Shown: piece after piece, positions 13,866 through 46,910 of the stretch
Layout: every line of letters begins with the position of its first letter
How positions within the stretch are numbered: position 1 is the first letter of the stretch
Made by a program: the position numbers and the translations under genes
The notes under the pieces: generated by a model
Told to the model about the DNA's origin: nothing
Databases searched by the model: none
The model's input: only the letters and a program-made list of their open reading frames with translations
DNA from: Niastella populi
GTDB lineage: Bacteria > Bacteroidota > Bacteroidia > Chitinophagales > Chitinophagaceae
Direction: 5' to 3'
NCBI RefSeq assembly: GCF_002078015.1
Contig: NZ_LWBP01000001.1
Location: 310,001-374,000, forward strand
Length of the DNA stretch: 64,000 nt

Positions 13866-13903
13866 AAGGTGGGTCCTTTTATGAGGGCCCACCTTTGTTT
13901 TTT
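13866..13903 (+). terminator. intrinsic terminator after the subtilase-lectin gene
   Basis: An eleven-pair stem (AAGGTGGGTCC with GGGCCCACCTT, one wobble) is followed by TTGTTTTTT, 30 bases after the stop codon. Confidence 0.88.
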
Positions 13904-13938
13904 ATGTGTGCCACGTTTCAAAAACGCGGCACATAAAG
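13901..13938. repeat. GTGTGCCAC-type hairpin, copy 1
   Basis: TTTATGTGTGCCACGTTT and AAACGCGGCACATAAA form a long imperfect stem. It is the most diverged of five such hairpins in the window and lies between the terminator and the ArsR promoter. Confidence 0.7.
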
Positions 13939-13961
13939 GAGCGGAAAAAAAAAATCCGAAA

Positions 13962-13985
13962 ATACATTGAAACATTTCGATGTAT
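13962..13985. promoter_or_regulatory. palindromic operator upstream of arsR-type gene
   Basis: This is a near-perfect 24-bp inverted repeat centred in GAAACATTTC: arms ATACAT-T-GAAA and TTTC-G-ATGTAT, 10 of 11 positions paired, spacer CA. It covers the presumed -33 region of the promoter whose -7 element is at 13991. The same core recurs before the MFS gene. Confidence 0.8.
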
Positions 13986-13990
13986 CTATT

Positions 13991-13998
13991 TATATTTG
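13991..13998 (+). promoter_or_regulatory. Bacteroidota -7 element (TATATTTG) of the ArsR gene
   Basis: TATATTTG matches the TAnnTTTG consensus, and a TTG lies 21 bases upstream inside the operator. It places transcription start at about 14004, so the ATG at 14023 is the start and the longer frame from 13906 is not used. Confidence 0.7.
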
Positions 13999-14022
13999 TA
14001 CCGGCAAAGCAAAATAGCCGGT

Positions 14023-14298
14023 ATGGACAGCAAAAAATTTGAAAAGATTTCCCGTGCGTTGAGTGATCCCAACAGGATCGTGATTTTGGAGAAGTTCAAA
14101 AAGACAAAAGACTGCCTGTACTGCGCCGAGATCCACGATAGCCTCGATCTGGCGCAACCATCTGTATCGCACCACCTGAAACAACTGGTAGACGCCGATC
14201 TGTTGCTGCCCGAAAAAGAAGGCCGCAACCTGAAATATACCCTGAATGAAACGGTTCTCGACGATTACATTGCCTTTCTGAAAGCCCTTAAAGGCTGA
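14023..14298 (+). CDS. ArsR-family winged-helix transcriptional repressor
   Basis: The 91-residue protein shows the ArsR winged helix: ALSDPNRIVILEKF, the recognition helix QPSVSHHLKQLVDADLL, and the wing EKEGRNLKYTLN. Its Cys pair (DCLYC) is a possible sensor but is not the classic metal motif. I chose the ATG at 14023 because a promoter -7 element lies just upstream. A palindrome over its own promoter recurs before the MFS exporter 290 bases downstream, so it probably represses itself and the exporter. The inducer is unknown. Confidence 0.88.
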   Translation: MDSKKFEKISRALSDPNRIVILEKFKKTKDCLYCAEIHDSLDLAQPSVSHHLKQLVDADLLLPEKEGRNLKYTLNETVLDDYIAFLKALKG

Positions 14299-14559
14299 AG
14301 GCTAAAAGCTGAAGGCTGAAGGCTGAAAGCTGAACGCCGAGCCTGAACGCGGAACGCAGCATGCTGAATACTAAAGGCGTAAGTATCAGGCAAAACAGAA
14401 ACTCCAAAGGTAAATCCTAAAACAGAACACTAAACACTGAAAGCAAAAGGCTTAAGGCCGGAATCAAATGCAGAACACTAAACGCTGAACGTGAGCTTCG
14501 AATTTGAGACACACGCGTTAAGCCTTCAGCGTTTAGCGTTAAGCTTCTTTTTGTCCAAT
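14299..14559. repeat. spacer of GCTGAAGGCTGAAAG words with complementary arm
   Basis: No gene is present. The left side repeats purine-rich words (GCTGAAAGCTGAACGC). The right side, just before the exporter operator, carries the complementary type (TTCAGCGTTTAGCGTTAAGC), so the spacer can fold into a long imperfect hairpin. Confidence 0.55.
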
Positions 14560-14579
14560 ATATCGAAACATTTCAATAT
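14560..14579. promoter_or_regulatory. palindromic operator upstream of the MFS gene
   Basis: A 20-bp inverted repeat, 9 of 10 positions paired, again centred in GAAACATTTC. It ends nine bases before the exporter ATG. The shared core with the ArsR operator is the sequence evidence for co-regulation. Confidence 0.78.
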
Positions 14580-14587
14580 TTAAATTT

Positions 14588-15799
14588 ATGAAGAAGTCGA
14601 TCTACATCATGGCGCTGGGGGCATTTGGCATTATCACTACTGAATTTGGCATTATCGGAATTATGCCCGCCATAGCCAAACATTTCAACGTATCGATCGA
14701 TACGGCCGGCTGGTTGCTGAGCGGGTTTGCATTGACCATTGCACTAACGGGACCATTCTCTGTGTTACTAACCTCTAAAATAAACCGAAAATGGATGATG
14801 TGCCTGGTGTTGCTGACGTTTGTGGCATCGAACATCCTTTCGGCCGTATCGCCCAATTTTACGGTATTGATGATAGCGCGTATTTTACCGGCATTCCTGC
14901 ACCCCGTATTCTGGGCGGTAGCAACGGTAGCGGCTTCCAAACAGGTTGAACCGAAGGATGCGCCTAAAGCGGTATCGGTTGTACTGGGTGGGTTAAGCGT
15001 AGCCACCGTATTGGGTGTGCCCATCACCACGTATATTTCAGAATTGATAAACTGGCAGGCTTCATTTTATGTATCGGGAGTGATCAACCTTATAGCGTTT
15101 GCCGCGCTGCTGGCCTTTGTGCCTTCGATGCCGGTAACGGAAAAACAATCGGTGAAAAGTCAGCTCGTAATTCTTAAAAAAGGGCAAATGTGGGTGAACC
15201 TGGTGGCCACCATGATCATGATCGCGGGGATCTTCGCCACTTACAGTTTTCTGGCAGAATACCTGGGAAAGATCAGCAGTATGGACGGAACACAGATCAG
15301 TATTATGCTGTTGCTGTTTGGCGCCACCGGTATTGCTGGTAACTGGGTTACCGGTATTGCACTTAGTAAAAACGTAATGCTTACCACCCGGTTCTTTTTA
15401 TTATCGCTGGTTGGTATTCACCTGCTCGCCTATACGTTTGGCGGTTTATTTATTCCCATGACGGCCATTGTGGGCATTTGGGGTTTTATACATACCGGCG
15501 GTTTTTTAATAGGGCAAACCCGTTCTACTTCCGAAGCGCCGGAAGCGCCAGAACTGGCAGCAAGTTTAATGGTATCGTTCGGAAATGCCGGGGTATCGCT
15601 GGGGACTTTCCTCGGTGGACTGGTTATAAAAAGTTTTGGCGTTCACCATGTAATCTGGATAAGCATTTTGTTATTGCTGGTAGCCCTCGCGCTCACATAC
15701 GTATATGTGGGCAGGCGATCGGCTGTAACCGAAAAAGAACGGGAACAGGAAGCTGACGAGCCGGTATTGGTGCCTGAAGAAGCAGTTTTGGAGCTGTAA
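14588..15799 (+). CDS. MFS drug/sugar efflux transporter (DHA1, AraJ/YdhP-like)
   Basis: The 403-residue protein has twelve hydrophobic segments and the DHA1 signature near the N-terminus (TEFGIIGIMPAIAKHF, then DTAGWLLSGFALTIALTGP). An acidic C-terminal tail follows the last helix. Proton-driven efflux of a small molecule across the inner membrane is the family role. The ATG lies nine bases after a palindrome shared with the ArsR gene, so it is likely the repressor's target, and the pair forms a small inducible efflux unit. The substrate is not predictable. Confidence 0.88.
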   Translation: MKKSIYIMALGAFGIITTEFGIIGIMPAIAKHFNVSIDTAGWLLSGFALTIALTGPFSVLLTSKINRKWMMCLVLLTFVASNILSAVSPNFTVLMIARILPAFLHPVFWAVATVAASKQVEPKDAPKAVSVVLGGLSVATVLGVPITTYISELINWQASFYVSGVINLIAFAALLAFVPSMPVTEKQSVKSQLVILKKGQMWVNLVATMIMIAGIFATYSFLAEYLGKISSMDGTQISIMLLLFGATGIAGNWVTGIALSKNVMLTTRFFLLSLVGIHLLAYTFGGLFIPMTAIVGIWGFIHTGGFLIGQTRSTSEAPEAPELAASLMVSFGNAGVSLGTFLGGLVIKSFGVHHVIWISILLLLVALALTYVYVGRRSAVTEKEREQEADEPVLVPEEAVLEL

Positions 15800-16038
15800 A
15801 GGTGTCTTACTACAACAGCCGCATCTTTGTATCGAGCCGTAATACAGCGTACCCCGGCAAGCGTCCGAAGCTGGTGGTAGTATATGAATAATTGATTACA
15901 ATAAAAGAACAAAGAACGGGTGGATCTGGTAAAACGGGTCTGCCCGTTTTCTTGAGAAATAAGCTCCGATAACTTATAGTTCTTGTATCGTATCGATTTA
16001 ATGCCGATAATTGTGATTTGTAAAAAACAGTAATCCGA

Positions 16039-16932
16039 ATGCAAAAGATCTATCTCAGTGATTCAGGCCCAAAAGTATCTCCGGCCATTTACGGATTTTA
16101 CAGATGGAATGAAGTGTCGGGGAATGCTGCCCAAACGATGGAAAGTATCGTTAGCCTTTGTCTTGAACTGGGCATCAATACCTTTGACCACGCCGATATT
16201 TACGGCGATTATCAGTGTGAAGAACTGTTTGGTAAACTCATCAGCAGCAAGTCGTTCAAACGCGAGGATATTGTATTGTTTTCCAAATGCGGACTGGTTA
16301 CGCCACACGAGAGCCTGCCCGATGTTCGCGTTAAACATTATAATACTTCAAAGGAGCATATCTTTAAAAGTGTTGAAAATTCCCTGCGGAAGCTGAGAAC
16401 CGATTATATCGATATTTTCCTGCTCAATAACCTCGATCCTTTATCGAATGTGGAAGAAACCGCGCTTGCCCTGCAGCGCCTGAAGGATTCGGGTAAAGTG
16501 AAGAACGTTGGGGTAGTTGGTTTCACCGTGTTTCAGCACCAGCTGCTGGCTTCTTTACTGAAAACGCCCATCGTTACCAATCATATTGAACTGAACCTGC
16601 TGAACACCTCGGCCCTTGACAATGGCCAGGTTGATTATATAAAACAACGCTATATGCGACCGCTGGCATCATCGCCGCTGGCCGCGGGCCGTATTGCCAA
16701 TGGCACCGATGCGCAGGTTGTAAAGGTTAGGGCGAAGCTCGAAGCGATTGGCAAAAAATACAATGCTGATATAGAATCCATTGCCGTTGCCTGGCTGGTG
16801 AAATTAGGGGCCCTGCCGCTGATAGGCACCATCAACCAGCAACGCATCCGCCATATCGCCAACGCATTCGCCATCGATCTCGATCACCAGGACTGGTATG
16901 AATTATATGCTGCTTCAAGGGGAGAGTTATAA
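16039..16932 (+). CDS. aldo/keto reductase, YdhF-like, catalytic His replaced
   Basis: The 297-residue (beta/alpha)8 protein has the AKR residues Asp50 and Tyr55 (FDHADIYGDY) and Lys83 (SKCG). The fourth tetrad residue, normally His in a LLLHRPDP motif, reads LLNNLDP, with Asn130 in the His position. The usual GVSNF motif is also altered (GVVGF). The NADPH site near the C-terminus (IGTINQQRI) is only roughly conserved. It may be a divergent reductase with low or changed activity. It is a single gene with word-repeat spacers on the downstream side. Confidence 0.85.
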   Translation: MQKIYLSDSGPKVSPAIYGFYRWNEVSGNAAQTMESIVSLCLELGINTFDHADIYGDYQCEELFGKLISSKSFKREDIVLFSKCGLVTPHESLPDVRVKHYNTSKEHIFKSVENSLRKLRTDYIDIFLLNNLDPLSNVEETALALQRLKDSGKVKNVGVVGFTVFQHQLLASLLKTPIVTNHIELNLLNTSALDNGQVDYIKQRYMRPLASSPLAAGRIANGTDAQVVKVRAKLEAIGKKYNADIESIAVAWLVKLGALPLIGTINQQRIRHIANAFAIDLDHQDWYELYAASRGEL

Positions 16933-16944
16933 CAATTTGGCAGC

Positions 16945-17075
16945 CCGCAACAGGCTGAACGCTTAAGACTTAACGCGGAAAGCTTGTGTTCGAATATCGA
17001 ACATGCTGAGTTTATTCGGTCAGCACTCATTACGGGAGCTTGCGTTAAGCATTCAGCGTTATGCGTTCAGCTTTC
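16945..17075. repeat. inverted word-repeat spacer (GCTGAACGC / GCGTTCAGC)
   Basis: GCTGAACGCTTAAGACTTAACGCGGAAAGC-type text on the left is answered by GCTTGCGTTAAGCATTCAGCG-type text on the right, with further AACGC/GCGTT pairs. There is no gene. It ends at the pcm promoter. Confidence 0.55.
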
Positions 17076-17100
17076 TCTTCGTTAAGCGTTCGGCATTTCA

Positions 17101-17108
17101 TATCTTTG
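17101..17108 (+). promoter_or_regulatory. -7 element (TATCTTTG) directly before pcm
   Basis: A perfect TAnnTTTG lies only six bases before the ATG at 17115, with TTCG 19 bases upstream as a weak -33. The mRNA would have almost no leader. Confidence 0.6.
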
Positions 17109-17114
17109 TGCCGA

Positions 17115-17771
17115 ATGAGAACGTTTGATGATACTTACCGGCATAAAGGTTTACGGAAACAACTGGTTGACTTATTAAAACAGAAAGGCATTACTGATGA
17201 GCGGGTACTGACCGCCATTTTACAGGTTCCGCGGCATTTCTTCCTCGATTCAGCATTAGACAGGGTTGCTTATGAAGACCGGGCTTTTCCTATTGCAGAA
17301 GGCCAAACCATTTCGCAACCGTATACCGTTGCTTATCAAACCCAGTTACTGGAGGTGAAACCTTACGAAAAGGTGCTGGAGATTGGTACGGGCAGCGGCT
17401 ATCAGGCAATTATTCTCGGCGAAATGAATGCGCAGGTATATACCATCGAACGGCAGAAAAAGCTGTTTGAAGAGCACCGTAAGTTCATTCTTCGCGGTAA
17501 ATATCCCAATATTAAATATTTTTATGGCGATGGCTATGAAGGGCTGCCTACCTACGGGCCATTCGATAAAGTGATTGTTACCGCAGCAGCGCCGTATATT
17601 CCACCTAAACTGATCGAGCAGTTGAAAACAGGCGGTAAAATGGTGATACCGGTAGGTGAGGGAAATGTGCAACGGATGTTGCGCCTTACCAAACAGGCCG
17701 ATGGCAGCGTTACAGAAGAATTGTTCGATAACTTTTCGTTTGTGCCAATGCTGGAAGGGAAGAACCAGTAA
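17115..17771 (+). CDS. pcm: protein-L-isoaspartate O-methyltransferase
   Basis: From the ATG at 17115 the product is 218 residues, the usual PIMT length. It opens with the family's HKGLRKQLVDLLKQKGI and VPRHFFLD. It has the substrate motif QTISQPYTVAYQ, the SAM-binding VLEIGTGSGYQ and the later GDGYEGLP. It repairs isoaspartyl residues in damaged proteins by SAM-dependent methylation in the cytoplasm. The in-frame ATG at 17061 would add 18 unrelated residues and lies upstream of the promoter, so it was rejected. Confidence 0.95.
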   Translation: MRTFDDTYRHKGLRKQLVDLLKQKGITDERVLTAILQVPRHFFLDSALDRVAYEDRAFPIAEGQTISQPYTVAYQTQLLEVKPYEKVLEIGTGSGYQAIILGEMNAQVYTIERQKKLFEEHRKFILRGKYPNIKYFYGDGYEGLPTYGPFDKVIVTAAAPYIPPKLIEQLKTGGKMVIPVGEGNVQRMLRLTKQADGSVTEELFDNFSFVPMLEGKNQ

Positions 17772-18008
17772 CCAATGTGATAATGTGCTAATTTGCTGAT
17801 GTGCTAATGAAAATACAACGAAGGTGAAATGTCCTGAATGATGAAAATGAAGTGAATAGATAAAGGGCAATAGACAGGGCGCCTGTTACCGGATACCGGT
17901 TTGTGAAGCGCCAGGTCAATGACAGTGCGATTGTTGGTGCCGGAGCACCGGGAACCGGTAACTGAAAGTTGTAACGGATTTCAGAACCAAGTATTCAACT
18001 AATAATCA

Positions 18009-18785
18009 TTGAGAGTAGTAATTATAGGAACAGGAAATGTTGCCACTATTTTAGGTAAAAGGTTTTTAGCCGCCGAACATGAAATAGTACAGGTTTGTGG
18101 AAGAAATGCATTGCATGCAGAAGACCTGGCCGATACATTGTCTGCCGTATCGACAACGGATCTAAAGCATATCGATCAGTCGGCCGACCTGTATGTACTG
18201 GCTGTTAGCGATAATGCTGTTGCGGCCGTAGCGGCTGAACTGCAGCTGAATAACAAACTCATTGTTCATACCGCCGGCGCCGTATCCAAGGATGTGCTCA
18301 GCGCCGCCAGCAAAAATTATGGGATCTTATACCCGCTGCAAAGCCTGCGCAGCGAACTGAACGAACTGCCCGAAATTCCTTTCCTCGTTGATGGTAATAC
18401 CGGGGATGATCTTGCGCTGATCACCGAATTTGCAAACACCATTTCGCACCAGGTAGAACAGGCCGGTGATGAACAACGGTTGAAACTGCATGTGGCCGCG
18501 GTAATGGTAAGCAATTTCACCAATCATTTATATACGCTGGCCAAAGCATATTGTTTGCATGAGAAAGTTGACTTCAATATGCTGCTGCCGCTGATAACGG
18601 CCGTTGCAGAAAGGTTGCACGATTATGAACCGGCTGCCATTCAAACGGGACCGGCCGTTCGAAACGATGAAGCCACCATTCAAAAACATCTCGCGCTGTT
18701 ACAGGACCATCCTTCATTGAAAGTAATGTATACCATGTTCACGGAGAGTATCAAAAAGATGTACGGCGCGCGAAGCGCGGGTTGA
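18009..18785 (+). CDS. Rossmann-fold protein with DUF2520 domain, UUG start
   Basis: The 258-residue protein begins with a Rossmann dinucleotide-binding motif (VVIIGTGNVATILGK) and continues into a helical DUF2520 domain with HTAGAVSK, GILYPLQSLR and HVAAVMVSNFTNHLY. It resembles the F420-dependent NADP oxidoreductase/ProC type of dehydrogenase; the substrate is not known. The start must be the TTG at 18009: an in-frame TAA lies at 18003 and the Rossmann strand begins at residue 2. Confidence 0.88.
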   Translation: MRVVIIGTGNVATILGKRFLAAEHEIVQVCGRNALHAEDLADTLSAVSTTDLKHIDQSADLYVLAVSDNAVAAVAAELQLNNKLIVHTAGAVSKDVLSAASKNYGILYPLQSLRSELNELPEIPFLVDGNTGDDLALITEFANTISHQVEQAGDEQRLKLHVAAVMVSNFTNHLYTLAKAYCLHEKVDFNMLLPLITAVAERLHDYEPAAIQTGPAVRNDEATIQKHLALLQDHPSLKVMYTMFTESIKKMYGARSAG

Positions 18786-18947
18786 AAAGTTGATGAGGTT
18801 GATAAAGTTAAAGCCATAAAAGACAGAAGCGGAAAGCCAAATTTGGTGAGGCATTGGGCCGCGGTTGTTTTCTACCTCATCATTCTACATTTGATATTCA
18901 ATATTCATCTGTTCTTTGCCTTTCCTTTATCAACTCTATCACCCTTA

Positions 18948-19550
18948 TCAACCTTTCAACTTCTTTTGCGACTTTTTCCTTTTCTTCTTTCTGATCACAG
19001 CGGCATTCTCCTTTATTTTCTCTTTTCCATTGTATTCTTCACCCAGGTATCTTTCACGTATAATGCGCATGTGATGCGCTACATGTCCGGCGCAAACAAA
19101 TGCCAGTCCGGCCACGCTGATGGTACTGTTATTGGCAGAACCGGTTTGCAGCAGCTGGTCATCATCGAGCGAATGCAGGAAAAGCTCATTGGCGGTGCGC
19201 AGGGCTTTGAACTCATCAACCAGTTCATTCCACTTGCGTTTGGGCGCCTTGGCGGTTATGGCCCAGTTGTTTTCATCAAAACCGGGGAGGGGAGCGGGGT
19301 CCATACGGGCAAATGTAAGCGCGCGGTAAATAAATACCCGTTCGGCATCGATTATGTGTTGCAGTAACTCCTTGATGGTCCATTTGCCTTCCGCATAGGC
19401 ATAGTTGATCTTTTTGTGCGGGATCTGTTTCAGCAGTTTTCTAAAGCGGCGGGTATTGTTGGCAAGGGCTTCCTGCAGGTTCTCTTCCTGCAGTGCATTG
19501 AGATAGGTTTTATAAAAATCAGGTACGGTAATGTCTTTTTTGCTGACCAT
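18948..19550 (-). CDS. DinB-family metal-binding protein
   Basis: The 200-residue protein has the DinB/YfiT four-helix pattern: KWTIKELLQHIIDAERVF with the first His ligand, and FVCAGHVAHHMRIIRERYL with the His pair near the end of the domain. A very basic Lys-rich tail follows (KKKRKKSQKKLKG). DinB-like proteins bind a divalent metal and include thiol-dependent transferases; the specific reaction is not readable. It is transcribed toward the DUF2520 gene, so the two converge. Confidence 0.85.
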   Translation of the reverse strand: MVSKKDITVPDFYKTYLNALQEENLQEALANNTRRFRKLLKQIPHKKINYAYAEGKWTIKELLQHIIDAERVFIYRALTFARMDPAPLPGFDENNWAITAKAPKRKWNELVDEFKALRTANELFLHSLDDDQLLQTGSANNSTISVAGLAFVCAGHVAHHMRIIRERYLGEEYNGKEKIKENAAVIRKKKRKKSQKKLKG

Positions 19551-19579
19551 ACATCATTTTTTCTAAAAGTACTTAAAAC

Positions 19580-19695
19580 TGGTCAATGGTCAATGGTGAA
19601 TCGTCAATGGTCAATGGGCTCACGAATTCTATGCATTCGAATTAGTTATTAGTCTCCCGCATCGGGTACTATTCACCATTGACCATTCACGACAT
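19580..19695. repeat. inverted GTCAATGGTCAATGG words
   Basis: GGTCAATGGTCAATGGTGAAT on the left is complementary in style to TTCACCATTGACCATTCAC on the right, around a loop of about 60 bases. It lies between the DinB start and the subtilase terminator. Confidence 0.6.
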
Positions 19696-19706
19696 AAAAT
19701 AACAAA

Positions 19707-19743
19707 GGGTACAAATAATCGCCTGTGCCAGTTATTTGTACCC
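19707..19743 (-). terminator. hairpin terminator of the secreted subtilase gene
   Basis: A perfect 12-bp stem (GGGTACAAATAA with TTATTTGTACCC) around a 13-base loop lies 21 bases past the minus-strand stop. The T-rich tail on the minus strand is moderate. Confidence 0.7.
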
Positions 19744-19763
19744 TGTATGTTTTATAAATAAAA

Positions 19764-21473
19764 CTATCCTCTCTTATTCTTCATTGTTGGTTTGGGCGAC
19801 GATTTTTTCGGCGCTTTTTTACCGGAAGGATCAAGCGTGGCGGCTATTTTAGCGGCCTCGAACGCGTTGATGATACCACCGCTTTCGCTCAATTCGTTCA
19901 GCGCAACCAGCTCATCGGTGCCAGGTTTTTTAACCTTGGTTTCAGGCGCCTGAGATGATTTCATTAAACAGTACTTCAGTTGCTGTGGTGTAAGGTAAGG
20001 GAAGTATTCAAGCAGGAAGGCTGCTGTACCGGCAACTACCGGGCAGGCCATACTGGTACCCTGTGCATTTCCGTAGGTATTGCCGCCGGGAATGCTTGAA
20101 TAGATCTTAACACCGGGCGCAAACACATCAACCTGGTTCTTTCCATAGTTTGAGAAAGATGCGGTGAAGCCGCCGGCTTTGGGATCGCCGCTGGCGCCAA
20201 CCGTGATCCAGTTAGATGCCTTTGTATTGCTGCCTTTGATCATTGCATTGGGGAAATTATCGGCCGTATCGATATTCTTGGCATCGTTACCAGCCGCATG
20301 TACCAGCAACACGCCTTTGCTTTCTGCATATTTAACCGCTTCATCTACCCATTTTTTCTGGGGCGAGAAGTCTTTACCAAAGCTCATGTTCACTACTTTG
20401 GCGCCGTTATCGGTTGCATAACGGATAGCCAGGGCAATATCTTTATCGTGCTCATCGCCATCGGGCACGGCACGGATCATCATAATGCGAACGTTATCGG
20501 CAACACCATCCATTCCCTTTCCATTACCACGAACTGCGCCGATGATACCGGCTACGTGTGTACCGTGGAAGGGGGTAGAAGCCATTACATCGGGGTTACC
20601 ATAGTCGCGGTCGTTGATATCGGCTTCATTGTCTTTCGTAATATCGCCGCGGTAGTTTTGAGGCGCTTTGTCTTTGGCTTCAGCTTTTCTTTCTTCACCG
20701 CTTACGAACTCTTCAAAACCTTCGAGGAACTCCTTGTTGGTGGTTTCCATCATCTGGTTGGCTTTGAACAGGTACAACAGGCTGGCTCTGGCGCCTTTTT
20801 CGGTTGTTGAAACCGCTGTAAAAGTATCTACGTCGTTACCGGTATACGTTTCTTTGTTCAGGAACTTACGCATGGCGCTGTCGCTTTTCTGGGCGCTCAT
20901 CAATGCTCTTTTCAGCATTACCAGGTCAACGCCTTCATCGCTGCCATCGCCTTCGATCTTCTTTTTCGACCTGACCCACATTTTGTACTCATCTTTTTCC
21001 TCGGCGCTCAGTTTGGTGGTGTCGATGTTCTTACCGGCAAATTTGTCTTTGTACATATGGTAAACGCGGGCTCCTTCATAAGAGTCCTGTTTAACGTTCC
21101 TGCCGTCTTTACCGCCAATAAAGTTCCAGCCATGGATATCGTCTGCATAGCCGTTGCCATCGTCATCGATACCATTGTTGGGAATTTCTTTGGGGTTTAC
21201 CCACAAGATCTCTTTCAGGTCTTCATGCAACGTGTCGATACCTGAATCGATCACCGCAACCACTACGGTTTTTCCTTTTAGGTTTTTTGTACGGATAAAT
21301 TCATAGGCTTTATCGATGCTGATACCACTGAATCCGTCCTTGGTTTTGTCGAGCAGGTGCCAACCCTTCGGCACATCTCCTGATTTTGTGCTTTTCTCCT
21401 GTTGCGCAAAGGAGGTATTCTCTGCAATCACAAAGGCAGTTACAAGTCCTGCTACTTTTACCAGTTTGTTCAT
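19764..21473 (-). CDS. secreted S8 subtilisin-like serine peptidase
   Basis: The 569-residue protein has a signal peptide (cleavage near SFAQ, residue 24) and a full catalytic triad: Asp76 (AVIDSGID), His303 (HGTHVAG) and Ser474 (GTSMACP), with Asn396 (AAGN) for the oxyanion hole. An unusually long insertion of about 180 residues, charged and helical, separates the Asp and His motifs. The C-terminus is Lys-rich (KKAPKKSSPKPTMKNKRG). It is unrelated in architecture to the lectin-bearing subtilase at 11.2 kb. The role is extracytoplasmic proteolysis. Confidence 0.93.
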   Translation of the reverse strand: MNKLVKVAGLVTAFVIAENTSFAQQEKSTKSGDVPKGWHLLDKTKDGFSGISIDKAYEFIRTKNLKGKTVVVAVIDSGIDTLHEDLKEILWVNPKEIPNNGIDDDGNGYADDIHGWNFIGGKDGRNVKQDSYEGARVYHMYKDKFAGKNIDTTKLSAEEKDEYKMWVRSKKKIEGDGSDEGVDLVMLKRALMSAQKSDSAMRKFLNKETYTGNDVDTFTAVSTTEKGARASLLYLFKANQMMETTNKEFLEGFEEFVSGEERKAEAKDKAPQNYRGDITKDNEADINDRDYGNPDVMASTPFHGTHVAGIIGAVRGNGKGMDGVADNVRIMMIRAVPDGDEHDKDIALAIRYATDNGAKVVNMSFGKDFSPQKKWVDEAVKYAESKGVLLVHAAGNDAKNIDTADNFPNAMIKGSNTKASNWITVGASGDPKAGGFTASFSNYGKNQVDVFAPGVKIYSSIPGGNTYGNAQGTSMACPVVAGTAAFLLEYFPYLTPQQLKYCLMKSSQAPETKVKKPGTDELVALNELSESGGIINAFEAAKIAATLDPSGKKAPKKSSPKPTMKNKRG

Positions 21474-27413: not shown

Positions 27414-27764
27414 ATATCATACGCTAAAAAAACGGGGATGCAAGGTAGCACCCGATTGCAAACCTGCAAAAAAATTGTATAAAACAAACTTACGCTTGTT
27501 AGCGGCCAACAGTTCTAAGTTCTTAGTTTTTAGTTCTTAGTTGGCGATATTTGGAATTCCCTGCATTGTAATCAGCATGCTGTTCCGCTTCGGGAAACAG
27601 GCAAAACCTTTAGGGGATGGCAGGCAAGCTACACTTAAAACATTCAACTTCCAACTTCGAACTTTTTTCCGGCTGCTTTGTTGCTGCTCCATCTATGTAT
27701 CTAATTACGAATATTTTAATGCCACATGATCAAAATCATTCCATACCTCAATACATTTTTGAAC

Positions 27765-27798: not shown

Positions 27799-27849
27799 AA
27801 GGTGTGCCACATTTAGTTTTCTTCTTTGAATGCAAGTGTGGCACACCTG
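27799..27849. repeat. GTGTGCCAC-type hairpin, copy 2, in the ccmE leader
   Basis: AGGTGTGCCACA pairs with TGTGGCACACCT around a loop of 26 bases. It ends 22 bases before the ccmE ATG. Confidence 0.85.
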
Positions 27850-38225: not shown

Positions 38226-38246
38226 AGACTTAGAAATAGATTATTC

Positions 38247-38278: not shown

Positions 38279-38290
38279 TAGCAGATGTTC

Positions 38291-38298
38291 TATTTTCG
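38291..38298 (+). promoter_or_regulatory. -7-like element (TATTTTCG) directly before the NUDIX gene
   Basis: It is one mismatch from TAnnTTTG and only four bases before the ATG at 38303. If used, the mRNA is leaderless or nearly so. Confidence 0.4.
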
Positions 38299-38302
38299 GG
38301 CC

Positions 38303-39611: not shown

Positions 39612-39841
39612 TAATGTGATAATTCGATAATCCCGCAGAGCGGGACAAGTTGTGATAATGGCCAATAAACCACTGTTACAGGTTACAGGTGAAATACAGG
39701 TTGTGGGTAATCTGGAAAAGAAAATGAGGCCGCAGGAACGGGCTGCCATTGCGTGAAGCCTGCATATATTTAGTTGTCACGAATGAAAGAACCACAAACC
39801 ACAAACAACAAACCACAAACAACAAACTATAAACTGTGGTT
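39612..39841. repeat. GATAATGTGATAAT words and one CAAACCACAAAC arm
   Basis: GTGATAATGTGATAATTCGATAAT starts right at the rlmB stop. From 39786 to 39838 runs ACCACAAACAACAAACCAC-type sequence, the same arm sequence as the 3'-end hairpins at 41972 and 44261, but without the conserved loop or the second arm. No gene is present. Confidence 0.6.
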
Positions 39842-40729: not shown

Positions 40730-40769
40730 AAAGCGCTATTAGTAAGAAATTTAGCGATTTCAGGATTTC

Positions 40770-40836
40770 GGGATTTTGAGATCTATCAGAGGGTAAAACC
40801 TGATGAAATCTCAAAGTTTCTAAATCTCAAAATCCG
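40770..40836. repeat. inverted repeat GGATTTTGAGAT, relative of the 23490 hairpin
   Basis: GGATTTTGAGAT (40771-40782) and ATCTCAAAATCC (40824-40835) are perfectly complementary. The inner sequence carries the same GATGAAATCTCAAA string found in the 23490 hairpin, so the two are members of one family. Confidence 0.75.
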
Positions 40837-40941
40837 AAATTGAACTTCATGCCTCTTCATTCCTCCTTCGTCCTTTGCATTCCTTATGACTGTTCAACTT
40901 TGAACCTTATCTCTTAATGTATAAACCTGATAAATGTGATT

Positions 40942-41946
40942 ATGGACCTACAGATACCGATTCAGATCTCCACTTTGTCGAATCCCATCAATTACCAGGA
41001 TAATATCATGTTAATGGGGTCGTGCTTTACCGAGCACATCGGCGAAAAGCTCGATGAGCTTAAGTTCAGTGTGCTGCAGAATCCCAATGGTATTTTGTTC
41101 GATCCGGCCAGTGTAGCAAGCAGTCTGGTTTCATATGTTCAGAACAAACAGTATCAAACCGAAGAGCTTTTTTATTATAACGAGGTTTGGCAAAGCTGGC
41201 AACACCATAGCCGGTTCTCAAAAACCGATCTGCAGGAATGCCTGCGCGGCATCAATGCCTCGCAACAGGAAGCGCATGCTTACCTGAAAACGGCCAACTG
41301 GCTTATCATTACTTTAGGCACTTCCTTTTCATACCGGTTGACCGAACAGGTACCTGTTTCATTTCGCCGGGGCGCAGTTCGCGGCGCCGTTGCCAATAAC
41401 CACCGCACGCCTGCAGGCTGGTTCAATAAACACCTGCTCACCATAGAGGAAACGACTACCATGCTCGACAACTGTTTGCACCAGTTGTTCCAGTTCAACC
41501 CCAACCTGAAAGTGATCTTTACGGTAAGCCCGGTGCGGCATATTCGCGATGGCGTTATCGATAATAACCGCAGCAAGGCGCGGCTGATAGAAGTTGTTCA
41601 TCACATGGTGAATAAATTCGACCGGCTGTATTATTTCCCGGCGTATGAGCTGGTGATAGATGTGTTGCGCGATTACCGGTTCTACGATATCGATATGGTG
41701 CATCCCAATTACCAGGCTACTTCTTTTGTGCTCGACAAATTCATGCGGCATTTTGTCGATGAGAAAGCGCAGCAACTTGCAGAAGAAATAAAAAAGATAG
41801 TGATAGCCCGTAAACACAAACCTTTTCAGCCTTCAACCGAAGCACATAAAAGATTTTTAAAAACCCATCTGGAGAAGGCGCAGGAACTGCAGCGAAAATA
41901 TCCGTTTTTGAATCTTGATGAGGATATAAGATACTTTTTGCAATAA
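40942..41946 (+). CDS. GSCFA-domain protein (SGNH-hydrolase-like)
   Basis: The 334-residue protein has the family's defining N-terminal MGSCFTEHIGEKL, then ITLGTSFSYR and the VSPVRHIRDG block that places the His/Asp pair of an SGNH-type esterase, followed by MVHPNYQAT. It probably acts on an acylated substrate, but none is known. I place the start at ATG 40942; a GTG six bases upstream is the alternative. The 3' end is followed by the hairpin at 41972. Confidence 0.88.
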   Translation: MDLQIPIQISTLSNPINYQDNIMLMGSCFTEHIGEKLDELKFSVLQNPNGILFDPASVASSLVSYVQNKQYQTEELFYYNEVWQSWQHHSRFSKTDLQECLRGINASQQEAHAYLKTANWLIITLGTSFSYRLTEQVPVSFRRGAVRGAVANNHRTPAGWFNKHLLTIEETTTMLDNCLHQLFQFNPNLKVIFTVSPVRHIRDGVIDNNRSKARLIEVVHHMVNKFDRLYYFPAYELVIDVLRDYRFYDIDMVHPNYQATSFVLDKFMRHFVDEKAQQLAEEIKKIVIARKHKPFQPSTEAHKRFLKTHLEKAQELQRKYPFLNLDEDIRYFLQ

Positions 41947-41971
41947 GAAACAGACTGGGAGATATGTATAA

Positions 41972-42104
41972 GTTTGTGGTTTGTTGTTTGTTGTTTGTTG
42001 TTTGTTGTTTTTTATACGCGAGTTCAAAATTAATAGTGAACCTCAAAGCGCGGCAGCAACCACAAACTACAAACCACAAACTACAAACCACAAACTACAA
42101 ACTA
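41972..42104. repeat. 3'-end word-repeat hairpin, copy A
   Basis: GTTTGTGGTTTGTTGTTTG arms and ACCACAAACTACAAACC arms enclose a loop whose minus-strand reading is GGTTGCTGCCGCGCTTTGAG then TTAATTTTGAACTCGCG. It lies between two convergent genes, and the arm supplies the TAG stop of the GH109-like gene. Confidence 0.88.
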
Positions 42105-43451
42105 ATATTCATCCCCAAAAGCAAACCTGTTTTTCCTATACATCCATTGCCCATTTGTAAAATCGGGGAACTCCACCGTTTCGTTGCCCAATGCTATGCT
42201 TTGCTCGCTCAATGGGGTAATGGCGCTCCACACGGCAGCATCATATACATCCATAGGCGTTCTGGTCTTACGTTTTACCGATTCAATGAATGCGTGCAAC
42301 ACAAAGAAATCCATTCCGCCATGACCGGCGCCTTCGGTAGATGCGCCCCAGCGTTTCCATAACGGGTGATCGTATTTATCTATGTAAGCCTTTGCATCTT
42401 CCCATTGATCATTGGTTTTGCTTACCCCTTCAATGTAGAGCGAATGATTTACGTCCATCCAGATGCCTTTGGTGCCCTGTACGCGAAAGCCAAGCGAGTA
42501 GGGGCGGGGCAGGTTGGTATCATGTTGCAGCAGTACGGTTTCACCGTTTGCACATTTGATCATGGTGGTAACTACATCGCCCAGTTTAAATTCCACTTTG
42601 GCATTGGGGTGTTGTTCGCCGCCGTTCTTTACAATATAGTCATGTAGTCCGCGCGCTTTGGTGGCAAAGCTGGAGAGTGATACAAAGCGATTGCCATAAT
42701 TGATATTGATCATTTCCGCAACCGGGCCAATACCATGGGTAGGATACAAATCACCGTTACGATGCACGGAATGCTCCGTACGCCAGCGCGCCTCTGAAAA
42801 TGCTTTCTCTCCAAATTCAACGCCGCCGCCATAGGGTTGTGTTCCATTATTGAATTTCACATGCCGCAGATCGTGCTGATAGCCGCCCTGCAGGTGAATA
42901 AGTTCACCAAACATGCCCTGCCGAACCATGTTCAATACGGCCATAACATCGCGGCGGTAACACACGTTCTCGAGCATCATCACATGGGCGTTGTGATGTT
43001 CGGCGGCTTTTACCACCTCCCAGTGGTCCTGCAGGGTGATGCCCAGCATTACTTCGGTGCCGATATATTTAATGCCGGCTTCGAGGCAACCGATGATCAT
43101 GGGTGCATGCCATTCCCAGGGCGTGGCAATGATCACCGCATCGAGCTCTTTCAGTTCAAGCATTTTCTTCCATGCGTTCACATCGTCTTTATACACTTTG
43201 GCCATGGGTTTGCCGGCTTTTTTAAACAGGCTGGCGCTCCGCTCCAGCATGCGCTCATCGATATCGCATATGGCTACCACATTAACATCTTTACGCCGAA
43301 GCGCATTTTCGAGGTGACCCTGGCCGCGCAGGCCAACGCCGATAAAACCCAGTTTAACGGCAGGCTCAGCCGCTGCGAAAATACCGGCGGCGGGTAATAA
43401 TAAACCCGCTGATGCCAGGCCGGTATTTTTGACAAATGATCTTCGGTTCAT
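42102..43451 (-). CDS. Gfo/Idh/MocA-type protein, GH109-like (alpha-N-acetylgalactosaminidase)
   Basis: The 449-residue protein has a Tat-type signal (NRRSFVKNTGLASAGLLL), a Rossmann NAD domain (LGFIGVGLRGQGHLENAL, VVAICDIDERML) and the GH109 core YGGGVEFGEKAFSEARWRT, HRNGDLYPTHGIGPVAEMI. GH109 enzymes use a bound NAD for a redox-assisted cleavage of alpha-GalNAc. The match to the GH109 core is close from memory. Function on a glycoprotein or mucin-type sugar is the inference. The promoter region holds the hairpin at 43471. Confidence 0.88.
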   Translation of the reverse strand: MNRRSFVKNTGLASAGLLLPAAGIFAAAEPAVKLGFIGVGLRGQGHLENALRRKDVNVVAICDIDERMLERSASLFKKAGKPMAKVYKDDVNAWKKMLELKELDAVIIATPWEWHAPMIIGCLEAGIKYIGTEVMLGITLQDHWEVVKAAEHHNAHVMMLENVCYRRDVMAVLNMVRQGMFGELIHLQGGYQHDLRHVKFNNGTQPYGGGVEFGEKAFSEARWRTEHSVHRNGDLYPTHGIGPVAEMININYGNRFVSLSSFATKARGLHDYIVKNGGEQHPNAKVEFKLGDVVTTMIKCANGETVLLQHDTNLPRPYSLGFRVQGTKGIWMDVNHSLYIEGVSKTNDQWEDAKAYIDKYDHPLWKRWGASTEGAGHGGMDFFVLHAFIESVKRKTRTPMDVYDAAVWSAITPLSEQSIALGNETVEFPDFTNGQWMYRKNRFAFGDEY

Positions 43452-43470
43452 AGCTTTAATTTTGTTTTAG

Positions 43471-43519
43471 AGGTGTGCCACACATCCTGAGCGAAGGCGA
43501 GGGAAAGTGTGGCACACCT
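43471..43519. repeat. GTGTGCCAC-type hairpin, copy 3, between divergent genes
   Basis: AGGTGTGCCACAC and GTGTGGCACACCT are fully complementary around a loop of about 23 bases. It ends 19 bases from the GH109-like ATG and 42 bases from the SMUG2 ATG. Confidence 0.9.
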
Positions 43520-43561
43520 GAAGCACCAATTTGGTGCTGCCAAAATACCAAATAAGCGAAC

Positions 43562-44260
43562 ATGAACACTGCCGCTCAAAAACTTACGCAATCGAATGCA
43601 ATTCTGAATTTCTGTAAAAACCTGTCGCCCCATATCAAATTACCGGCCGGTGTGTCCATTATGAACCCATTTGCCGATGCGGAGGCCTGGCAACTGGCCG
43701 AAACGTTCTATACCAGATTTTACAACGATCATCATCCGCGTACATTCATCTTCGGTATCAATCCCGGGCGTTTTGGCGGCGGCGTTACCGGTATTCCGTT
43801 CACCGATCCCATACGCCTGAAAGAAGTGTGCGGCATCGATAACGACCTGCCGAAAAAAGCGGAGTTATCGTCGCATTTTATATATGCAGTGGTAGAAGCG
43901 TATGGCGGTGCCAAAGCATTCTATTACGACTTTTATATTACAGCCATGTCGCCGCTGGGATTTACAAAGGATGGCGTTAACCTGAACTATTATGACGATA
44001 AGGAATTACTGAAAGACAGCGAGCCGTTCATTTTACAAAGCATCAACGAACAGCTGGATACCATTGCAACTACGCGTGAGCATTGTTTTTGTCTGGGGGA
44101 AGGCACCAATTACAAGATCTTTCAGAAGATCAATGCGAAGCACGGTTTCTTTAAGGAAATAATTCCGCTGCCGCATCCGCGGTGGGTGATGCAATACCGG
44201 AGGAAGAAGGTGGATGAGTATGTAAAAGTATATTTGGAGAAATTAAGAAGGAGTTTATAG
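43562..44260 (+). CDS. uracil-DNA-glycosylase-like protein of the SMUG2 (DUF4918) type
   Basis: The 232-residue protein has FIFGINPGRFGGGVTGIPFTDP, the active-site motif of SMUG-type glycosylases (GMNPGPFG in SMUG1), and LPHPRWVMQYRRK near the C-terminus where SMUG1 has its HPS loop. It would remove uracil or related bases from DNA. The TAG stop is formed by the first word of the downstream hairpin (TTTATAGTTTATAA). Confidence 0.85.
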   Translation: MNTAAQKLTQSNAILNFCKNLSPHIKLPAGVSIMNPFADAEAWQLAETFYTRFYNDHHPRTFIFGINPGRFGGGVTGIPFTDPIRLKEVCGIDNDLPKKAELSSHFIYAVVEAYGGAKAFYYDFYITAMSPLGFTKDGVNLNYYDDKELLKDSEPFILQSINEQLDTIATTREHCFCLGEGTNYKIFQKINAKHGFFKEIIPLPHPRWVMQYRRKKVDEYVKVYLEKLRRSL

Positions 44261-44379
44261 TTTATAATTTGTGGTTTGTTGTTTGTAGTTTGTTGTTGCT
44301 GCCGCGCTTTGAGAGTTAAAATTAATTTTTAACTCGTGTGTTTATGAACCACAAACCCTAAACCACAAACCACAAACTA
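44261..44379. repeat. 3'-end word-repeat hairpin, copy B
   Basis: GTGGTTTGTTGTTTGTAG arms and CCACAAACCACAAACTAG arms enclose GCTGCCGCGCTTTGAG followed by TTAATTTTTAACTCG. It fills the whole gap between the convergent SMUG2 and miaE genes and contributes the TAG stop to both. Confidence 0.9.
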
Positions 44380-44985
44380 GTGAATTCGATCTCCCCGCAC
44401 TTCTATTTTCTGCATCAACACGGCTTCATAAGCCAGCCATTCCTGCCAGCGTTTGCGTACAATTGATTTTTCTACATAGGTTTCGGCCAGCTCTATGAAT
44501 AAATGATAATGGCCGGCTTCGCTTTCCATAAAGCGGCGGTAAAAATTGCGCAGGTATTCATCGTCGAGACCTTCGCTCAGGCGTTTGAAGCGTTCGCAGC
44601 TGCGGGCTTCTATCAGGGCAAAGATCAACAGCTTATCGAGCAGCCTTTGTTCAGGGCTGCCGTCTTTCTTTTGAAATAACTGCAGCTGGTTTACATATTC
44701 ATCCTTTCGTTGTTTGCCCAGCTTCAGATTGCGTTTATGCAGTTCGGCCAGCACCAGGCGAAAGTGTCCCCATTCTTCGGTAACGATGGGGGCCAGCTCA
44801 GTCACCAGCTTTTCCAATTCGCTGTATCGCTGTATGAGCGAAATGCAACTGGTAGCTGCCTTTTGCTCGCAATACGCATGATCGGTTAGAATATACTCCA
44901 GCGACAATTCGGCCAGGTTCACCCAGCGCGGGTCTGTGGGCAGGTGCAGCCCGAGGATATTTTTTGTTTCGTTGGTAGTGCTCAT
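44377..44985 (-). CDS. miaE: tRNA-(ms2io6A)-hydroxylase
   Basis: From the ATG at 44985 the product is 202 residues. It has the ferritin-like di-iron ligands: EEWGHFRLVLAEL, EARSCERF and ESEAGHYHLFIELAE. MiaE hydroxylates the isopentenyl side chain at A37 of tRNA. A GTG nine bases upstream overlaps the promoter element at 44994-45001, so the ATG is preferred; the mRNA is then nearly leaderless. It diverges from the bioF-like gene with a hairpin between them. Confidence 0.93.
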   Translation of the reverse strand: MSTTNETKNILGLHLPTDPRWVNLAELSLEYILTDHAYCEQKAATSCISLIQRYSELEKLVTELAPIVTEEWGHFRLVLAELHKRNLKLGKQRKDEYVNQLQLFQKKDGSPEQRLLDKLLIFALIEARSCERFKRLSEGLDDEYLRNFYRRFMESEAGHYHLFIELAETYVEKSIVRKRWQEWLAYEAVLMQKIEVRGDRIH

Positions 44986-44993
44986 AAAGTGCA

Positions 44994-45001
44994 CAAAGTT
45001 A
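44994..45001 (-). promoter_or_regulatory. -7 element (TAACTTTG) directly before miaE
   Basis: On the minus strand TAACTTTG ends eight bases before the ATG at 44985, leaving room for at most a few bases of leader. Confidence 0.55.
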
Positions 45002-45027
45002 ATGGCTAAGTGCGATATTTGAGCCTT

Positions 45028-45060
45028 AAGTGTGCCACACCTTCAAGGTGCGGCACACTT
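45028..45060. repeat. GTGTGCCAC-type hairpin, copy 4, tight loop
   Basis: AAGTGTGCCACACCTT pairs with AAGGTGCGGCACACTT (one A-C mismatch) around a single C. It ends 11 bases before the bioF-like ATG and lies 43 bases from the miaE start. Confidence 0.92.
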
Positions 45061-45071
45061 CAATGCAAGTT

Positions 45072-46166
45072 ATGAACGACTCATTCTTACTGAAAAAACT
45101 CAACGAGCGGCAGCAGCAGAATGCTTTCCGCCGCCTGCAGTTGCCCAATGACAGAACCGATTTCTGTTCAAACGATTACCTCGGCATTGTGCACAACGGG
45201 CTGATAGAAAAAAAGCTGGGTGAAACCGCCCATACCTGGAAACATGGCAGTACCGGTTCGCGCCTGCTCGCCGGCAATTATAAACTGGTTGAAGAAACGG
45301 AGGAAATGCTGGCCGCCTTTCATGCGGCCGAAGCGGCGTTGCTATTCAATTCAGGTTATGATGCCAACCTGGGTTTGCTGAGTTGTGTTCCCCAGCGGGG
45401 CGATACCATTATTTACGATTACCTCAGCCATGCCTCCCTGCGCGATGGCATTCGGCTCAGTTTTGCCCAATCCTTTTCATTCAGGCACAATGACCTCGAA
45501 GACCTGGAAAAAAGGCTGCAGGCCGCCACCGGTGAAATATTCGTTGTTACGGAATCGGTGTTCTCGATGGATGGCGATAAGGCCCCATTGACCGCCATCA
45601 GCGCTTTGTGCGAACAGTACGGCGCGCATTTGATCGTTGACGAAGCCCATGCTACCGGGGTGGTAGGCGGGCAGGGGGAAGGACTGGTTCAGCAACTCAA
45701 CCTGCAGGCCGCCTGTTTTGCCCGTATACATACTTTTGGAAAAGCGGTAGGCTGCCATGGCGCTATTGTGCTTGGGAGCGGGCGGTTGCGCAATTATCTT
45801 ATCAATTTCTGCCGGTCGTTCATCTATAGCACGGCATTGCCCGAGGCCAGCGTGGCCGCTATACGTTGTGCATATGAGTTATTTCCGCAAATGCATGCCG
45901 AAAGGGCGCATTTGCAACAACTGATAAATACTTTTCAACAGGCGAACATCAATTGTAAAAAGCTGGTTTCCGATACGCCGGTGCAAATAGTTATTATACC
46001 GGGGAACGACCAGGTTAAGAAGGTAGCTGGCGATCTGCAAACCGCCGGGCTCGATGTACGCGCCATTTTATATCCTACGGTTCCGGCAGGGAAGGAGCGG
46101 TTGAGGATTGTGTTGCATGCTTTCAATACGTTGACGGAGCTTCAGGGGGTAATTAGCTGTTTATAG
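45072..46166 (+). CDS. bioF: 8-amino-7-oxononanoate synthase-like PLP aminotransferase (alpha-oxoamine synthase)
   Basis: The start ATG at 45072 gives 364 residues, MNDSFLLKKLNERQQQN. It has FCSNDYLGI, STGSRLLAGNY, IVDEAHATGVVGGQGEG and the PLP-lysine site HTFGKAVGCHGA. These are shared by BioF, KBL and SPT; the length and DYLG motif favour BioF, which condenses pimeloyl thioester with alanine in biotin synthesis. No other bio gene is adjacent, so the symbol is a best fit. Upstream frame extensions run through a hairpin and were rejected. Confidence 0.8.
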   Translation: MNDSFLLKKLNERQQQNAFRRLQLPNDRTDFCSNDYLGIVHNGLIEKKLGETAHTWKHGSTGSRLLAGNYKLVEETEEMLAAFHAAEAALLFNSGYDANLGLLSCVPQRGDTIIYDYLSHASLRDGIRLSFAQSFSFRHNDLEDLEKRLQAATGEIFVVTESVFSMDGDKAPLTAISALCEQYGAHLIVDEAHATGVVGGQGEGLVQQLNLQAACFARIHTFGKAVGCHGAIVLGSGRLRNYLINFCRSFIYSTALPEASVAAIRCAYELFPQMHAERAHLQQLINTFQQANINCKKLVSDTPVQIVIIPGNDQVKKVAGDLQTAGLDVRAILYPTVPAGKERLRIVLHAFNTLTELQGVISCL

Positions 46167-46271
46167 TTTATGGTTTATAGTTTTTGGTTGCTGCCGCGCT
46201 TTGAGGTTTAAAATTTAATTTTGAACTCGCGCAATAAAGAACAATAAACGATAAACAACAAACCATAAACC
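46160..46271. repeat. 3'-end word-repeat hairpin, copy C
   Basis: TTTATAGTTTATGGTTTATAG arms, GGTTGCTGCCGCGCTTTGAG, TTTAATTTTGAACTCGCG, then ACAATAAACGATAAACAAC arms. It lies between convergent genes; the TAG stop of the bioF-like gene is inside the first word and the stop of the cupin gene abuts the last. Confidence 0.9.
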
Positions 46272-46757
46272 TTACTTTTTCCTTATTTCATTCTCCGGCA
46301 AATAATAGGTCTCATTCGGGCCAATTCCCGATACCTGCATGGTGCATTCCTCGGTGAACCATTCGTAGTGCGGCTGATCGGCTTTTATAACCACATAACT
46401 TCCCGGGCCATAAGCCATGGCGGCAATAGTAGTATCGAATATTTTATCCATAACAATATGGGCTGAACCGCTGAGAATGGTAACATAGAGGTCGGAATTA
46501 TGCACATGCGGCATTCCTTTATAACCGGGCGGGAAAACGTAACGCTCAATAAAGAATCCGGGTTGGTTGCGGTGCCCGGCCAGATACATGTTCTTTCTGC
46601 CGCTTTGCAGCACGGTATCCCGTACGGGCGGAAGTATCATTTTTGCTTTTTCACCTTTATCCATCGGGGGACTTGCAATGTTCTGCACCGGGTTGTTGGT
46701 ACAGGACAGCCATGGAACCAGCAGCATTGCCATGGCAGAATAGGCTGTCTTTTTCAT
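46272..46757 (-). CDS. cupin-fold lipoprotein
   Basis: From the ATG at 46757 the product is 161 residues with lipobox LSC (MLLVPWLSCTNN). A single cupin follows: PPGYKGMPHVHNSDLYVTILSGSAHIVM, with the H.H...Y metal region, then YGPGSYVVIKADQPHYEWF. It probably binds a metal on the periplasmic or outer face; the reaction is unknown. A frame extension to 46931 runs through the hairpin at 46861 and lacks a signal peptide. Confidence 0.8.
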   Translation of the reverse strand: MKKTAYSAMAMLLVPWLSCTNNPVQNIASPPMDKGEKAKMILPPVRDTVLQSGRKNMYLAGHRNQPGFFIERYVFPPGYKGMPHVHNSDLYVTILSGSAHIVMDKIFDTTIAAMAYGPGSYVVIKADQPHYEWFTEECTMQVSGIGPNETYYLPENEIRKK

Positions 46758-46860
46758 AGCAAAACAATATTTAGGTGACGAATAATTAAAAGAACTGATG
46801 GGTAAGTTACTAAAATTTGACCAATTATGTATTAGATTATGCCAACGGTCGCCGGCAATG

Positions 46861-46910
46861 AAGGTGTGCCACACTTTCCTGGCGGCGGAAAAGTAAGTGT
46901 GGCACACCTT
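46861..46910. repeat. GTGTGCCAC-type hairpin, copy 5
   Basis: AAGGTGTGCCACACTT and AAGTGTGGCACACCTT are fully complementary (16 bp) around an 18-base loop. It lies 103 bases upstream of the cupin ATG. Confidence 0.92.

Follow-up and report, generated by a model that had tools for sequence, protein, structure and literature searches.

Five hairpins in a 64,000-nucleotide stretch of the Niastella populi genome (positions 310,001-374,000 of NZ_LWBP01000001.1, referred to here as the window) are members of a family with at least 109 copies in that genome (G000; 8.6 Mb, 263 contigs). We consider it likely that these hairpins are non-autonomous mobile elements of the repetitive extragenic palindromic (REP) type, served by a clade, found in Bacteroidota, of REP-associated tyrosine transposases (RAYT, or TnpA_REP, of the HUH-Y1 fold). 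Their build, position and spread, together with the bracketing of RAYT genes by such hairpins in other genomes, show them to work like REPs. The original prediction, made from the letters of the window, had proposed a dispersed element that was either REP-like or regulatory and lay on the 5' side of genes. The first of these proposals was supported by a dispersed, extragenic and palindromic family that brackets RAYT genes elsewhere, and the second was contradicted by a genome-wide 3' bias and by the congeners recovered, which have no such hairpin at window sites 2 to 5.

The hairpins form a large family of two length classes

The family was recognized by two arms that pair with one another. 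When searched with a gap of 3-33 nt, the two arms gave 74 forward and 73 reverse matches in the N. populi genome, compared with 0 and 0 for a reversed control pattern. The paired arms of the original prediction are therefore real, although the shared stem is looser than had been claimed, with at least one imperfect pair in each of copies 1 (with ATGTGTGCCACGTTT) and 4 (with AAGTGTGCCACACCTT). Scanning of 80 further stretches of the genome, chosen around model and pattern matches, together with the window yielded 110 hairpins, or at least 109 copies after one tandem array was dropped. This total is a lower bound, since 50 of the 58 places in the genome that fit a short-form pattern were among the matches listed.

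The gap between GTGTGCCAC and GTGGCACAC was 11-12 nt in 48 copies, 24-28 nt in 61 and 59 nt in one (the tandem array). Short-class hairpins have a stem of about 15 bp and a 3-nt loop (about 33 nt in all), and long-class hairpins have a stem of about 15 bp and a loop of about 20 nt (about 50 nt in all). Loops do differ in length, as had been noted, but they are not free to vary, falling into these two classes. Once oriented, the long loops resembled each other (mean alignment score 2.0 versus -1.6 in the opposite orientation), a contrast that is partly built in because orientation was chosen to raise it. The short class fits the description of a REP as a 20-40-bp palindrome present in many copies; the long class exceeds that range.

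All five hairpins were found at the positions given for them in the window, and none of 200 shuffles of any copy folded as well as the copy itself (z from -4.6 to -8.4). They lie as follows.

Copy 1, 13904..13936, unstranded: short class, 3-nt loop, imperfect stem; tandem gap, with a stop 67 nt before and the next called start 86 nt after.
Copy 2, 27800..27848, unstranded: long class; divergent gap, 23 nt to the start on the + side.
Copy 3, 43471..43519, unstranded: long class; divergent gap, two starts at 19 and 42 nt.
Copy 4, 45028..45060, unstranded: short class; divergent gap, two called starts at 42 and 11 nt.
Copy 5, 46861..46910, unstranded: long class; divergent gap, nearest called starts at 104 and 534 nt.

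Taken alone, the 9-mer was not enriched in the window beyond chance (18 matches with at most 1 mismatch against an expectation of 12.7; 12 of 100 shuffles gave as many). Since the lone 9-mer is at chance level and the paired-arm pattern is not, pairing is the non-chance feature. The arms covary. In 47 short copies, positions -1, 9, 10 and 11 had 19, 10, 12 and 19 double changes, compared with 8.6, 2.4, 2.8 and 9.8 in shuffles. A search of Rfam 15 gave 0 matches in the window at gathering score.

One N. populi stretch (L067 5463-5605, contig C194) holds 33-bp arm-plus-loop units repeated in frame, which give 11-amino-acid repeats in a linker. The host gene, judged by eye, encodes a histidine-kinase/response-regulator hybrid.

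RAYT-like genes lie between such hairpins in other Bacteroidota

A strict short-form pattern was searched against GTDB contigs, and 30 stretches were fetched. All were from Bacteroidota, including Taibaiella, Flavipsychrobacter and Lewinella, and seven came from Longitalea luteola. In three of the 30 stretches (L231, L236 and L243, from 3 different metagenome-assembled genomes), a RAYT-like gene lies between two hairpins, with a product of 197 amino acids in L231 and L243; a profile search detected no RAYT in the remaining 27. The check for a RAYT gene that the original prediction had suggested was therefore positive in these three stretches, while no hairpin-bracketed RAYT was found in the N. 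populi genome. The AlphaFold model of the L231-type protein (predicted local distance difference test score 86) was closest, among PDB entries, to 4er8, the structure of a RAYT in complex with a REP hairpin (E 3.7e-7).

Relatives of the L231-type RAYT, accepted at E up to 0.001 and in many cases weak or partial matches, were present in 83 of 147 Chitinophagaceae genomes, and the 30 best loci were fetched for a scan of their flanks. A hairpin was found within 350 bp on both sides of the gene at 12 loci, on one side at 9 and on neither at 9. Hairpin density was about 30 times higher near the RAYT genes than beyond 700 bp (45 in 20.8 kb, or 2.16/kb, versus 3 in 45.3 kb, or 0.07/kb). The flanking hairpins are of similar build, with a loop of 3 in 23 of the 33 best, and usually of other sequence, each RAYT tending to have its own. 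Close relatives of the window hairpin flank the two RAYTs nearest to the L231 type (69% and 58% identity). Of the 30 loci, 27 were usable for correlation; across the 18 of these RAYT-selected loci that had a hairpin, RAYT identity and hairpin-arm similarity rose together (rho 0.39; 2 of 5000 permutations as high). Collectively, these data point to a broad Bacteroidota RAYT group with a recurrent substrate build, an approximately 15-bp stem with a mostly 3-nt loop, in many sequence versions, no foot being seen in the version studied.

A loose core pattern was present in 5 of the 147 genomes. A decayed RAYT-like copy lies 180 bp from a hairpin in G014, and a RAYT fragment lies less than 60 bp from one in G097. 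Other Chitinophagaceae loci (L262-L274) have RAYT-flanking hairpins of other sequence, for example AAACCTGTGAGGTTT, AACTTCCCGAAAGTT and AGACCTATAAGGTTT, which are candidate REP families of their own.

Copies lie close to stop codons

Positions were scored against gene calls from our own codon-usage caller, in which stops are exact and starts approximate. Among 109 copies, 106 were intergenic, 2 were inside called open reading frames and 1 was at a locus edge. In tandem gaps (n = 65), 40 copies were within 20 nt of the upstream stop, compared with 16.7 expected had copies been placed uniformly in these gaps (none of 5000 trials gave as many), and 6 were within 20 nt of the downstream start, compared with 16.8 expected. 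A stop was within 20 nt in 20 of the 21 convergent gaps, and a start was within 20 nt in 3 of the 20 divergent ones. Overall, 60 of the 106 intergenic copies were within 20 nt of a stop, as is typical of REPs, which are extragenic and mainly 3'. A similar distribution was found in the congener G007 (n = 21), where 14 copies had a stop and 1 had a start within 20 nt, and 1 was in a divergent gap.

The statement that each copy sits 5' of genes is correct for the five window copies, four of which are divergent and one tandem, but does not hold for the family as a whole, whose bias is to stops and not to starts. The original prediction was misled on position because four of its five copies happened to be divergent.

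Hairpins are absent from four window sites in congeners and conserved at some other sites

A model of the hairpin, R1, was built from the version in N. populi, and its counts in other genomes, drawn from no more than 150 scored candidates in each, are lower bounds. With both strands counted, R1 matches ranged from at least 1 to at least 126 per genome in the genus. No such hairpin was present at sites 2, 3 and 4 in 9 of 9 congeners or at site 5 in the 8 of 8 recovered (G008 was not recovered). A scan of the congener loci of sites 2-5 agreed with this, its one find being a weak inverted repeat in G008 that is unrelated and does not lie at the sites. Gain in N. populi, rather than loss in each congener, is suggested by how many genomes lack the hairpin.

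Other sites are shared. Of 20 hairpin stretches from G007, 4 aligned over kilobases with fetched N. populi stretches, and the hairpin was at the same place in all 4, with arms kept and with loops and flanks diverged. A fifth pair aligned over 100 bp only, and the other 15 G007 stretches matched no fetched N. populi stretch. For one of the 4 shared sites, a convergent gap about 4.3 kb downstream of a tandem RAYT pair described below, the sequence was recovered from 9 genus genomes, N. populi included. A family hairpin was present in 5 of the 9, in five versions, while the other 4 had a different hairpin or a terminator-like inverted repeat, as judged by eye. Across the five versions, 97.3% of cells were paired, compared with 27-45% when the partners were slid, and 8 of 15 pairs had double changes; the GTG and CAC of the core were nearly invariant.

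Three further observations concern the window sites. At site 2 (27799-27849), most congeners without the hairpin have TGTGCCACG, or a sequence near it, right there, and the target may therefore already have resembled an arm. Beside copy 3 (43520-43540) is a small inverted repeat, GCACC..GGTGC, of the kind left by template switching, which was seen in N. populi alone among the genomes compared. At the place of copy 4, G004 (L124) has a 15-nt palindrome, AACCGTGGCACGGTT, resembling a single arm of another hairpin version.

Evidence weighing against mobilization by a RAYT

Several results weigh against a REP-type explanation. The L231-type protein matched NF047646 REP_Tyr_transpos over its full length (E 3.4e-16), but with 59.5 bits where the curated cut-off is 80, and its match to Pfam Y1_Tnp was also below cut-off. 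Shared ancestry of the genomes may explain part of the correlation between RAYTs and hairpins. The hairpins have no conserved foot, positions -3 to -7 carrying at most 0.31 bits (94 short-class and 122 long-class arms), and the unpaired GTAG/CGTC foot tetranucleotide of canonical REPs is lacking. Target duplications, which are expected of insertion sequences and miniature inverted-repeat transposable elements, were limited to sporadic exact ones at any offset or length among the 109 copies. Further, the long-loop class is left unexplained by a REP-type origin.

No mobilizer was shown in the N. populi genome itself. The search for relatives detected no L231-type RAYT in N. populi or G007, and in N. 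populi a profile of the L231-relative RAYTs retrieved solely the distant RAYT of the tandem pair (E 8e-10). G004 and G009 each have one closer RAYT (E 4e-23 and 6e-23) with no such hairpin around it, and R1 finds few hairpins in these genomes. No GTGTGCCAC hairpin was within 1 kb of the tandem RAYT pair in any of 9 genus genomes, nor was one near the Y1 genes of N. populi, of which Pfam identified two, plus a 175-amino-acid sister of one. With neither an L231-type RAYT nor hairpins beside the pair, no REPtron was found in N. populi. Since no close relative of the L231-type RAYT was found in N. populi, the hairpins there are probably orphans without a cognate RAYT. It is also possible that the cognate RAYT was missed because the assembly, in 263 contigs, is incomplete, or that the hairpins were transferred from another host. 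A genome with more than 100 hairpins in which no matching RAYT was found is a case for asking why hairpins persist.

The tandem RAYT pair (204 and 175 amino acids; L189-L206, L215) occupies one locus in all 9 genus genomes that are at least 90% complete, N. populi included. Its 204-amino-acid member is 89-92% identical across the genus, and the pair is conserved as if domesticated. It was rejected as a flanked mobilizer: it has no flanking hairpins and is present whatever the hairpin count. Upstream of the pair is a short inverted repeat, CACCGTAAARCTAT; of 215 loci compared, only those from this region had it. A 151-amino-acid Y1 transposase-like gene (L017 1447-1902) in N. populi has neighbors that by eye resemble DAHP synthase and 3-dehydroquinate synthase genes, and all 10 genus genomes have a Y1 match of similar strength. 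None of the genes between 10 close hairpin pairs in N. populi was transposase-like, as judged by eye only and with no family-library search.

A model of hairpin spread and its alternatives

In the model that we favor, the mobile unit would be a hairpin that lacks a GTAG/CGTC foot and has a near-perfect, approximately 15-bp stem and a loop of 3 nt; a long-loop derivative of it is seen in this genus. The RAYT would recognize the hairpin on single-stranded DNA, as on the lagging strand, nick beside it and then join it elsewhere. Copies would survive chiefly right after stop codons, the place of least harm. The L231-type RAYT would have been lost from N. populi while the hairpins remained. Old copies stay paired through compensatory change, as would fit RNA hairpins that are put to use, or tolerated, at 3' ends.

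A variant of this model, which we regard as possible though rather doubtful, is that orphan REPs, their cognate RAYT lost, have been taken over as a sequence-specific RNA element of 3' ends with GTG.CAC as its core. Compensatory evolution would maintain this element, and sister species would have exchanged it, at the corresponding gene ends, for hairpins that are terminator-like or of another kind. In a second form of this variant, the genus RAYT pair would act on the hairpins in trans.

It is improbable that the hairpins are solely a host-selected 3'-end RNA element, such as a bidirectional terminator or a block to 3' exonucleases, conserved and not mobile. The proximity to stop codons is as expected of such an element, as are the convergent site with some hairpin or terminator-like repeat in 9 of 9 genomes and the four G007-shared sites at which arms outlast loops and flanks. 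A T-tract (5 T in 8) followed 46 of 218 stem ends, compared with 26 at 40 nt further out, and a minority of copies may, from their sequence, terminate transcription. However, 172 of the 218 stem ends had no T-tract, and termination was rejected as the whole answer for lack of a U-tract at most stem ends; 20 of 106 intergenic copies are between divergent genes; and neither near-identical sequence in other genera nor RAYT bracketing is expected of a terminator. A separate terminator scan covered loops of 3-8 only and was thus blind to the long class. An RNA role at 3' ends could be an addition to a REP-type origin, with which it is compatible.

There is a slim chance that quasi-palindrome correction by template switching has kept the arms alike and made the covariation, with copies spread by rare illegitimate events and no transposase. 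The frequent double changes, the new inverted repeat beside copy 3 and the arm-like sequence at site 2 in most congeners are as this would predict, but it leaves unexplained the same core in other genera and the hairpins that bracket RAYT genes.

A 5' regulatory element, in which a hairpin in a leader or promoter controls the next gene, was suggested by the window, where five of five copies are 5' of a gene and three are 11-42 nt from a called start. This explanation is now very unlikely, being largely refuted by the 3' bias in N. populi and G007 and by the orthologous sites without a hairpin, and the range of R1 matches between genus genomes also argues against it, although R1 represents the N. 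populi version. Least probable of all are sites for a DNA-binding protein, which the near-palindrome GTGTG-C-CACAC in each arm and the near-invariance of GTG and CAC at the orthologous site might suggest, since double changes restore pairing between arms while symmetry within arms is not kept beyond chance (e.g., 157 of 218 versus 182.6 in shuffles), the spacing of the long class exceeds that of the short by about 15 nt, which is not a helical repeat, and every exact 9-mer in the window sits in a hairpin.

Other repeats in the window

A repeat of about 111 bp, separate from the hairpin family, is present at 44268-44378, 46159-46270 and about 41967-42088 of the window. Its copies at 44268 and 46159 are opposite in orientation, and it has dozens of relatives in N. 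populi and congeners, some of them in tandem (contig C196 of N. populi). A short A/T-rich repeat of the AGTTCTTAGTT type at 27508-27546 has many congener matches, mostly in G002 among the matches listed.

Comparison with known systems

Literature searches on REP and RAYT, and on REPs with the termination codon or transfer-messenger RNA, returned no description of the GTGTGCCAC hairpin, and none of the papers containing these letters was on the subject by title, among the matches listed. A term search of PMC2817692 found no mention of Bacteroidetes names.

Di Nocera 2013 (PMC3733652) describes canonical GTAG/CGTC REPs as dispersed extragenic palindromes of high copy number in tandem and convergent gaps, with some in open reading frames, and puts most conv-REPs no more than 20 bp from a 3' end. 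Judged by that account, the window family resembles canonical REPs in being dispersed, extragenic, present in many copies and close to stop codons, and differs from them in lacking the GTAG/CGTC foot, in the division of its loops into two discrete classes, the longer being about 20 nt, and in its stem of about 15 bp, compared with 6-13 bp (GTAG) and 8-9 bp (CGTC). In TIRtrons (RAYTs flanked by terminal inverted repeats), as outlined in the same paper, the gene for a tyrosine transposase is likewise flanked on both sides by a repeat that does not resemble GTAG REPs and is also dispersed, but each flanking repeat here is a complete hairpin. As with the Rickettsia palindromic elements cited there, a palindrome can be read in frame, here once, as the 33-bp units in the histidine-kinase linker; unlike them, the family has merely 2 of 109 copies inside called open reading frames.

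Another parallel is TnpA_Y1 subclass 2.6 (equivalent to RAYT group 5), found mainly in Bacteroidetes, whose flanks, according to Quentin 2018 (PMC6006769), have "atypical secondary structures" that lack GT[AG]G and have copies elsewhere in the genome. Like subclass 2.6 REPtrons as presented there, the system described here combines Bacteroidota RAYTs, foot-less flanking structures and a YIHQNP motif. It differs in that the structures are called weaker in that account and the stems here are near-perfect, in that the L231-type RAYT has NHFH and IQ/FQ in place of the NH[LIV]H and WQ of the subclass set, so that only the last motif (YIH[QN]NP) agrees, and in that N. populi yielded no RAYT of this type next to its hairpins. 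Because neither the foot of canonical REPs nor the motif set of subclass 2.6 was found, the hairpins are filed under neither. The principle is not new, since atypical flanks of Bacteroidetes RAYTs without GT[AG]G had already been noted in PMC6006769. What is new, as far as literature searches show, is that a build with an approximately 15-bp stem and a loop of 3 nt recurs, that a long-loop class exists, and that the hairpins are orphaned while their old copies are compensated. The REP/RAYT systems in the papers considered here lean on a GTAG guide, and the matched RAYT-hairpin pairs offer a means to study the recognition of foot-less REPs.

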